64,000 nt of DNA from Lactobacillus sp. Lineage in GTDB: Bacteria > Bacillota > Bacilli > Lactobacillales > Lactobacillaceae. Below, one piece after another: positions 52,605 to 54,987 of this stretch. A program made the position numbers and the translations under genes. The stretch is from positions 42,120-106,119 of the forward strand of contig JALCDX010000001.1 in NCBI GenBank assembly GCA_022641965.1, written 5' to 3'. Each line of letters begins with the position of its first letter. Position 1 is the first letter of the stretch. The notes beneath the pieces were generated by a model. It made no database searches and was not told where the DNA came from. It worked only from the letters and a program-made list of their open reading frames with translations.

Positions 52605-52690
52605 ACGTCAACATTTCAAGACGTCAAGTGAACAAGTAGCCAGTGCTGCACTGAGTGAAACCTGCAACTTGAGATGCACGAATGTTGAAC
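52605..52690 (+). promoter_or_regulatory. Structured rpsD 5' leader (candidate S4 autoregulatory element)
   Basis: Nested stems CAACATT (52609-52615)/AATGTTG (52681-52687), TCAAGT (52624-52629)/ACTTGA (52667-52672), CAGTG (52641-52645)/CACTG (52649-52653). Confidence 0.7.
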
Positions 52691-52744
52691 TTATGCCTCA
52701 TATTTTACTCCAAAAATACTTATATTTTATGGAGGATTTTTTTT

Positions 52745-53356
52745 ATGTCAAGATATACTGGTCCAAATTGGAAACGTTCAAGACGTTTAGGCATTTCTTT
52801 ATCAGGTACTGGTAAAGAATTAGCACGCCGTAACTACACACCTGGCGATCATGGTCCAAACCATCGCGGTCGTTTATCCGAATACGGTCAACAATTGCAC
52901 GAAAAGCAAAAGCTGCGCTGGATGTTTGGCTTGAACGAACGTCAATTTAGAAACTTGTTCTTGCGTGCCGGCAAGATTCGTGAAGGCCAACACGGCGTTA
53001 ACTTCATGAGATTGCTTGAATCACGTTTAGACAGCATTGTTTACCGTTTAGGCTTTGCTACTACTAGAGAACAAGCTCGGCAATTGGTCAACCACGGCCA
53101 CATTACCGTTGACGGCAAGCGCGTTGACATTCCTTCATACGAAGTTAAAGTTGGTCAAACTATTGGCCTGAAGGAAAAGTCAAAGAACCTGCAACAAGTC
53201 AAAGACGCTTTGGATGCTGTAGTTTCACGTCCCCCATTTGTTTCATTTGATGACAACAAGTTAACTGGTACTTTAGTTCGTTTGCCAGAACGCGACGAAA
53301 TGGAACCAGAAATCGACGAATCATTAGTCGTTGAATGGTACAACAAGCTGCTGTAA
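52745..53356 (+). CDS. rpsD: 30S ribosomal protein S4
   Basis: [34 protein letters not shown] upstream; track start 52682 is a spurious extension. Confidence 0.98.
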
Positions 53357-53375
53357 TTTTTCAGTCAGCTGGAAA

Positions 53376-53406
53376 AAGTCCTTCCCTTGCGGTAAGGCTT
53401 TTTATT
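53376..53406 (+). terminator. Terminator of rpsD
   Basis: AAGtCCTT-cccttgcggt-AAGGCTTTTT. Confidence 0.65.
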
Positions 53407-53443
53407 TTAACCAGACAAAGTTGCTGGGAAAGGAGCCCTAGCT

Positions 53444-53908
53444 ATGGCCGAAGACTTGAACAAACGATTAGAAATGAAAGCTCAGGGCATCACGCCCCAA
53501 ACTCGCCCTGACGAACGCAGGCGATACTTAGGATCTTTGCGCGAACGCGTTTACGTCCGCCTAACCGTGGCAGAAACTCAAGACAAAGCCACTGGCAATT
53601 TATTTTTGCAGCACTTTGCTGATTTTAAAGACTATGAAGTGCTCATCAACGGTCGTATGCCGCAAAGCCAATTGGTTGATCAAGTGATTGCCAAATGCGG
53701 ACAAACCAATACTTCTTTTCGTTTGATTAACGATCAAACAGCTCAGACGGATCCAGCTTCTACTGGTATTTTAGTGGTGGCTAAAACTGCCCTCAACCGC
53801 CCTCGCATCGAAATTAAGCAAGTTTACGCGCCTGAGGCTCCTAAAGAAGAGTTAAGCAGTTCAGCTAAGCCAAGTCTGTGGCAGCGAATCTTTCACAAAA
53901 ACGGCTAG
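53444..53908 (+). CDS. YueI family protein (DUF1694)
   Basis: 154 aa; YLGSLRERVYVRLTVAETQD; RBS AAAGGAG. Confidence 0.85.
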   Translation: MAEDLNKRLEMKAQGITPQTRPDERRRYLGSLRERVYVRLTVAETQDKATGNLFLQHFADFKDYEVLINGRMPQSQLVDQVIAKCGQTNTSFRLINDQTAQTDPASTGILVVAKTALNRPRIEIKQVYAPEAPKEELSSSAKPSLWQRIFHKNG

Positions 53909-53953
53909 TCGCGCAAGCCTACTCCTGTCTCAATGAAAGCGATCCCAAAAAGT

Positions 53954-53981
53954 TTGACATTGCGGCGGAATTTGTTACTAT
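53954..53981 (+). promoter_or_regulatory. Promoter of the 6S-like RNA
   Basis: TTGACA (53954-53959), 16 nt, TACTAT (53976-53981); predicted start coincides with the 5' arm of the closing stem. Confidence 0.75.
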
Positions 53982-53988
53982 ATAGTTG

Positions 53989-54166
53989 ATTCGAGTTGAT
54001 CGTTATCAATAATTGTAATGTTGACCGATCAAACCATACGACGTTAGAGTTTGTAAGTAACTACTGAATCGGAAGACTCTTCGTGAGGATCCATATTCAC
54101 TGCGATACAGGCTCATTATTTGAACACTGCGGGTTCAACAACGTCATTATTCATATCAACTCGAAT
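53989..54166 (+). ncRNA. 6S RNA-like structured RNA (candidate SsrS / Lacto-usp-type element)
   Basis: 12-bp terminal helix ATTCGAGTTGAT/ATCAACTCGAAT (53989-54000/54155-54166), inner helix GTTGACCG/CGGgtTCAAC, central bubble, apical arm GAGTTTGTA/TACAGGCTC (54047-54055/54106-54114); ~178 nt. Confidence 0.8.
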
Positions 54167-54182
54167 TATTCTGAATTTTCAG

Positions 54183-54208
54183 AGCGACTGCTTAGCAGTC
54201 GCTTTTTT
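54183..54208 (+). terminator. Terminator after the 6S-like RNA
   Basis: AGCGACTGC-tta-GCAGTCGCTTTTTT. Confidence 0.9.
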
Positions 54209-54226: not shown

Positions 54227-54502
54227 ATGCTCATCAAAATTCTGATGGCTGTTTTCATTGCCCTTTTGCTCCTAACGGCCTTTTTCTTATTAGGACACCA
54301 GCAGGCCATGCTGGAAGCGTTAGGACAAGAAACAAGCCCACACAAACTTGCTGTTGTTAAATACTCCGCTTATGCTCTTTTAGCAGTTAGCTTGCTCGGC
54401 ATCATTATTGTCCTTGCCTGTCCGCCGCTTTGGAATGTGTTAACGCTAGTCATTGCTTGTCTGATTATTTTAGTCTTCAGTCAATTAATTATGTCAAAGT
54501 AG
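54227..54502 (+). CDS. Small hydrophobic membrane protein (91 aa) upstream of usp
   Basis: MLIKILMAVFIALLLLTAFFLLGHQQAML...; start at 54227; the track's N-terminal extension covers the ncRNA and terminator. Confidence 0.75.
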   Translation: MLIKILMAVFIALLLLTAFFLLGHQQAMLEALGQETSPHKLAVVKYSAYALLAVSLLGIIIVLACPPLWNVLTLVIACLIILVFSQLIMSK

Positions 54503-54540: not shown

Positions 54541-54987
54541 ATGTTATCACAATACAAACACATTCTGGTTTCTGTCGATGGCTCCAAAGAAGCCGATCGT
54601 GCCTTCAGCAAAGCCGTAGCCGTAGCTGCCCGCAACCAAGCCACGCTAGATATTTTGCATGTCATTGATACGCGTGCTTTTCAAAACGTTTCAAGTTTTG
54701 ACTCAGCCATGGTCGAACAAATTTCAGGCGATGCCAAAACCAAGATGGAGGATTATGCCGATCGTGCTCGTAAGGCTGGCATTAACGAAGTTCATTATGC
54801 AATTGAATTTGGTTCGCCAAAGAGCATTATCAGTCATGATTATCCAAGCAAACATCAAACTGATTTAATTATTCTAGGAGCAACCGGTCTAAATGCAGTT
54901 GAACGGATGCTAATCGGTAGCGTTACCGAATATGTTACTCGCACAGCCGATTGTGACGTCATGGTAATTAGAACGCCATTATCTTAA
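54541..54987 (+). CDS. Universal stress protein (UspA family)
   Basis: YKHILVSVDGSKEADRAFSKAV, LIILGATGLNAVERMLIGSVTEYVTR; start MLSQYK after AGAGGTG. Confidence 0.95.
   Translation: MLSQYKHILVSVDGSKEADRAFSKAVAVAARNQATLDILHVIDTRAFQNVSSFDSAMVEQISGDAKTKMEDYADRARKAGINEVHYAIEFGSPKSIISHDYPSKHQTDLIILGATGLNAVERMLIGSVTEYVTRTADCDVMVIRTPLS

Follow-up and report, generated by a model that had tools for sequence, protein, structure and literature searches.

Comparative evidence for the Lacto-usp RNA of a Lactobacillus species as its probable 6S RNA

That the Lacto-usp motif might be a 6S RNA was reportedly suggested as early as 2010. The motif was published in that year for Lactobacillales (Weinberg et al. 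2010, PMC2864571; Rfam RF01710), and in the literature searched this was the only paper to use the name. The 6S RNAs of lactic acid bacteria, which are of the 6S-1 type (Rfam RF00013), were surveyed by Cataldo et al. (2021, PMC8414754), who reported that more than 91% of the genomes of these bacteria contain 6S, described rarA-6S-usp as the general 6S locus of these bacteria, identified an abundant 210-nt non-coding RNA of L. delbrueckii as 6S and flagged one Lactobacillus group with a non-canonical consensus structure. According to the same survey, lactic acid bacteria possess one 6S RNA as opposed to the two of Bacillus subtilis. The motif has therefore been known since 2010 and the location of lactic acid bacterial 6S at this locus, including that of L. 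delbrueckii, since 2021; new here are this species' copy of a known RNA and an explicit bridge between two Rfam families.

The window (i.e., the whole 64,000-nt stretch of DNA that was analysed) came from an 807-kb assembly that is 67.5% complete, and relatives with the same RNA, among them L. delbrueckii, L. johnsonii, L. jensenii and L. kefiranofaciens, placed its source in Lactobacillus in the narrow sense. An initial annotation had described here a transcription unit with a near-consensus promoter, a perfect 12-bp helix joining its ends, a second helix, a 9-bp apical stem with two G-U pairs, an alternative fold in the 3' side of the bubble and a strong terminator, followed by a hypothetical gene and usp in the setting of the Lacto-usp motif, and had inferred a 6S identity. 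All of these features were found where they had been placed (Table 1), the apical stem being formed by positions 54047-54055 and 54106-54114 and the alternative hairpin by TTGAAC (54120-54125) and GTTCAA (54133-54138). The transcript probably starts near 53988, 7 nt after the -10 element; TTGAC and the -10 were aligned in all congeners.

Table 1. Positions, in the 64,000-nt window, of the RNA element, its predicted signals and the genes downstream.
Feature	Position	Strand	Remarks
Cre-like site TGAAAGCGATCCCA (CcpA)	53934..53947	+	6 nt upstream of -35; 10/11 informative positions; 0/300 shuffles as good
Sigma-A type promoter TTGACA-16-TACTAT	53954..53981	+	10/12 consensus; TGn before -10
Whole transcription unit, primary transcript ~220 nt	53988..54208	+	promoter and terminator scans, fold z = -4.59; predicted start
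Closing stem P1, 5' strand ATTCGAGTTGAT	53989..54000	+	pairs with 54155-54166; 99.6% of cells paired, 43 orthologues
Predicted pRNA template	54016..54030	+	predicted pRNA 5'-GATCGGTCAACATTA, opposite C54030 (RNA nt 43)
Helix P2, 5' strand GTTGACCG	54020..54027	+	pairs with 54130-54132 and 54135-54139
Rfam RF01710 Lacto-usp match	54027..54114	+	74.2 bits, gathering cut-off 50
Central bubble, 5' side	54028..54046	+	unpaired between P2 and apical arm in tested structure
Apical arm	54047..54114	+	changes on both sides at all 9 basal-stem pairs
Central bubble, 3' side	54115..54129	+	holds 5' half of alternative hairpin 54120-54125/54133-54138
Helix P2, 3' strand CGGgtTCAAC = CGGGTTCAAC	54130..54139	+	GCGGGTTCAA common to canonical 6S of other genera
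Closing stem P1, 3' strand ATCAACTCGAAT	54155..54166	+	perfect 12-bp helix with 53989-54000
Intrinsic terminator	54181..54205	+	11 pairs, 6 G-C, then T-run
Small hydrophobic (membrane) protein gene	54227..54502	+	~90 aa; conserved neighbour between RNA and usp in Lactobacillus
usp, universal stress protein	54541..54987	+	PF00582, E = 3.7e-34

The 219-nt transcript folded at -63.8 kcal/mol compared with a mean of -44.25 for shuffled sequences, none of 200 of which did as well (z = -4.59), and the element had the rod form of 6S RNA, with a closing stem, a large central bubble and an apical arm within about 180-200 nt. When the full element, from closing stem to closing stem, was aligned for 43 distinct Lactobacillus loci, RNAalifold recovered the closing stem and the apical arm unaided. 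Standard pairs occupied 98.5% of the pair cells of P1, P2 and the apical arm in these orthologues, a proportion that dropped to 25-44% when one side was slid by 1-3 columns. Changes on both sides were noted at 16 of 40 pairs, most of them in the apical arm, and at 3 of the 11 pairs of P1. Compensatory changes in orthologous loci were evident in the apical arm and, more thinly, in the closing stem. P2 was invariant within the genus and so was neither supported nor contradicted there; outside the genus, canonical 6S RNAs of Lactobacillaceae kept the pairing with changed letters, as in TTGCCT/AGGTCAA and TCTTCC/GGGTTAGA (judged by eye). The alternative hairpin was kept in 89.9% of cells, and the alternative state that joins it to a helix between 54040-54045 and 54140-54145 in 83-90%. 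This state may be a refolded form of the RNA, as the collapse helix of B. subtilis 6S-1 (PMC8876501) would suggest by analogy.

The scans with Rfam models that had been proposed for this locus gave a divided result. The Lacto-usp model confirmed the identity of the motif, matching over all 90 of its positions (1-90) with E = 7.1e-11 over the 64-kb window, and this was the only Rfam match at gathering threshold in the whole window; matches to MicF and Hrs13 in a permissive scan were below gathering score, driven by the terminator, and were rejected. The RNA of Weinberg et al. (2010, PMC2864571) is the same as that found here, the difference being one of extent. The 90-position model spans only the 5' bubble and apical arm and omits the closing stem, the full template and P2 of the longer RNA at this locus. 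The 6S model, RF00013, gave no match here even when a 1.2-kb segment was searched with E values up to 5 allowed. This is unsurprising, as only 27 of 151 family genomes yielded an RF00013 match above the cut-off of the model. RF00013 was also absent from the rest of the assembly; a clear 6S RNA elsewhere in the genome, which had been named beforehand as counting against the annotation, was not encountered in the 67.5% of the genome that the assembly covers.

The two families excluded each other across genomes. RF01710 was present in 35 of 37 Lactobacillus genomes and in none of 24 genomes of other Lactobacillales, whereas RF00013 was present in 0/37 and 23/24, respectively, of the same 61 genomes. 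The two Lactobacillus genomes without RF01710 were 76% and 79% complete, and RF01710 without RF00013 was the pattern in each of the 28 congeners that were 90% or more complete. Among 151 genomes of the family, none contained both. In a genome of another genus of the family (G086, genus g44; loci L101/L112), a diverged RNA of the Lacto-usp type was noted between rarA and usp, with scores of 50.1 bits for RF01710 and 118 bits for R2, a covariance model built only from Lactobacillus Lacto-usp sequences.

Both families also occupied the same chromosomal slot. In Lactobacillus, usp was downstream of the Lacto-usp RNA at 30/30 loci and the RNA directly followed a full, intact rarA at 25/30; the L. 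delbrueckii locus (L077) carries the same RNA downstream of rarA. At 30 loci of canonical 6S in other genera, rarA was immediately upstream in 30 and usp downstream on the same strand in 29. The present species had usp downstream of the RNA and no rarA upstream; the support from synteny therefore comes from usp alone in this species and from both genes in its congeners. In place of rarA, the neighbour in nearly all Lactobacillaceae examined, the window held DUF1694 (yueI) and rpsD (52682-53988). No rarA was found in the assembly, which is incomplete (67.5%); the genome of a close relative (L076) carried rarA-type genes at other sites.

Several further observations were made at these loci. The small ORF ahead of usp matched no Pfam family, and a similar small hydrophobic ORF was also noted downstream of canonical 6S in several other genera. 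In genome G001, rarA (L029, 269-1350) was seemingly broken, with an alignment of only 173 residues and the C-terminal domain in a separate frame of 220 aa; a sequencing error may account for this break. Under the title Faecalicatena absiana YH-C36a, a contig (JAEDAG010000001.1, L072) contained a Lactobacillus rarA/Lacto-usp locus close in sequence to that of L. delbrueckii, and that assembly is likely mislabelled or contaminated.

Some features would also suit a cis-acting leader, i.e., an attenuator of the membrane-protein/usp operon in which alternative folds act on the terminator and so control how much transcription continues into usp. The RNA is always found ahead of usp, alternative pairings exist, about 20 nt separate a strong terminator from the first ORF, and in this interval the promoter scan listed no plus-strand candidate that reached its threshold. 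However, the terminator hairpin is separate from P1, a conserved antiterminator pairing was not seen in the structures examined, and the features that are conserved (i.e., closing stem, template and bubble) are those of 6S. Moreover, each near-complete congener has this RNA in place of 6S, and a monocistronic 6S transcript in most lactic acid bacteria is indicated by RNA-seq results (PMC8414754). Attenuation of usp by such a leader was consequently judged unlikely, to the point of retaining little credibility.

A function as 6S RNA was further indicated by the predicted template for product RNA (pRNA), situated in the 5' bubble with a start at nt 43, near the expected nt 40-44; the pRNA start of B. 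subtilis 6S-1 is nt 40 (PMC8876501). The longest conserved block of the 43-locus alignment, GTTGACCG(A/G)TCAAAC at 54020-54034, overlapped this template and was found in all 43 sequences. The predicted pRNA agreed with the measured pRNA of B. subtilis 6S-1, GUUCGGUCAAAACUA (PMC12005410), at 12 of 15 positions, a level reached anywhere in the RNA by 54 of 20,000 Markov controls. It also carried GG at positions 5/6 and AA at 9/10, with an A immediately preceding the start; all of these are marks reported for lactic acid bacterial 6S (PMC8414754). Other likenesses to B. subtilis 6S-1 are the pRNA start near nt 40-43 and a possible small hairpin in the 3' bubble, while the stem sequences differ.

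Compared with the lactic acid bacterial RNAs of Cataldo et al. (2021, PMC8414754), the RNA described here has the same rarA-usp locus, rod architecture, template GTTGACCGATCAA, 3' GCGGGTTCAA, pRNA marks and cre site at the promoter. It differs in the hairpin opposite the template, which is TTGAAC/GTTCAA in Lactobacillus as opposed to CCTGC/GCGGG in the lactic acid bacterial 6S RNAs, in its lack of a match to RF00013 and in an apical arm that is distinct and more constrained in sequence. The departure of this arm from canonical forms counts against a 6S identity. Invariant apical segments such as ATCGGAA and ATCCA, which are unlike canonical arms, together with the missing RF00013 match, could point to a descendant of 6S in which the arm has diverged too far for the standard polymerase decoy and the RNA serves another role. 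This is most improbable, however, in view of the high conservation of the functionally relevant part (i.e., template, P2, bubble and closing stem) and of in vitro results with truncated B. subtilis 6S-1, which still completes its cycle without extended arms (PMC8876501).

Homology with canonical 6S RNAs was evident from comparisons of profiles and covariance models, which were used because nhmmer searches with sequence-only HMMs, of canonical 6S against Lacto-usp loci and in reverse, gave mostly E > 0.01, although many of the reverse matches were at the correct place. For nine canonical 6S RNAs, model R2 gave an end-to-end alignment at the positions assigned by RF00013, with E values from 6.3e-5 (best) to 0.089 (weakest). 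Searched genome-wide, it matched the RF00013 position itself in one genome (G110, E = 2.2e-4) and a site inside the RF00013 match in another (G170), and it found loci adjoining rarA and/or usp in related genomes where RF00013 had missed them. Alignment of the two profiles from the 5' end through GCGGGTTCAA scored 31.2 (z = 9.2), compared with 13.3 +/- 1.9 and a maximum of 19.7 for 120 block-shuffled profiles. The converse model, R1, which was built from a default alignment of canonical 6S RNAs of the family with the template of one subgroup misaligned, recovered the whole of the present locus with a weak score (12.9 bits, E = 0.039), second to a stray match of 13.6 bits. Cross-family E values for single sequences were thus modest, 1e-4 to 1e-5 at best, yet exact as to locus. 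Another genus, g32, provided possible intermediates: in four of its genomes (loci L113, L114, L116 and L117), R2 found 6S-like RNAs with rarA and/or usp adjacent that RF00013 did not report at E <= 0.001.

Next to no probability was assigned to a trans-acting antisense sRNA, unrelated to 6S and present in the rarA-usp slot by chance, since, although Rfam types RF01710 simply as sRNA and the abundant non-coding RNA of L. delbrueckii was at first suspected to be antisense (reported in PMC8414754), the sequence homology to accepted 6S RNAs, the match to the pRNA template and the mutual exclusion with RF00013 all speak against it. In contrast, the 6S identity put forward in the initial annotation was borne out by that mutual exclusion, the rarA-usp slot, the covariance-model matches, the profile-profile score and the pRNA signature. 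Well supported by architecture, covariation, homology, locus, mutual exclusion and conserved template, the element very probably encodes the 6S RNA, of the 6S-1 type, of this Lactobacillus species, and RF01710 amounts to a description of an internal part of Lactobacillus 6S RNA.

The cre-like site ahead of the promoter was matched perfectly (11/11) in L010 and in the close relative L076, and about a third of the congeners scanned had their best cre match 4-6 nt ahead of the -35. Since cre sites have likewise been reported at about a third of lactic acid bacterial 6S promoters (PMC8414754), carbon catabolite control of the promoter of this RNA is likely, as judged from sequence.

For this species, we infer transcription, polymerase binding, pRNA synthesis, release and CcpA control, the polymerase cycle by analogy with B. 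subtilis 6S-1. The sigma-A promoter would give rise to an RNA of roughly 220 nt, ended by its own terminator, and CcpA bound at the cre site just upstream of the -35 would probably damp this promoter. Folded as a rod of closing stem P1, helix P2, open central bubble and apical arm, the RNA would present itself to sigma-A RNA polymerase as an open promoter and hold the enzyme during stationary phase. When nutrients return, the polymerase would copy the 5' bubble from C54030 into a short pRNA, 5'-GATCGGTCAACA..., the predicted 5' end of this antisense product being GATCGGTCAA; the pRNA would then open or invade P2, the RNA would refold and the enzyme would be freed. A more speculative proposal, and one that is rather doubtful, is that Lactobacillus carries a remodelled 6S-1 with a sequence-specific apical arm (invariant ATCGGAA, ATCCA and TGCG segments), which would imply that the -35-like contact with sigma-A has changed or that the RNA has gained a binding partner not shared by canonical 6S.

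The question of a 6S identity has been open since 2010, and comparative evidence is now available that RF01710 is not a separate class of sRNA. Exact pRNA sequences are also now available to be sought in existing small-RNA libraries. Annotation based on RF00013 finds no 6S RNA in the genus Lactobacillus; merging RF01710 with RF00013 would put the annotation right for several dozen species, dairy and human-associated lactobacilli among them.
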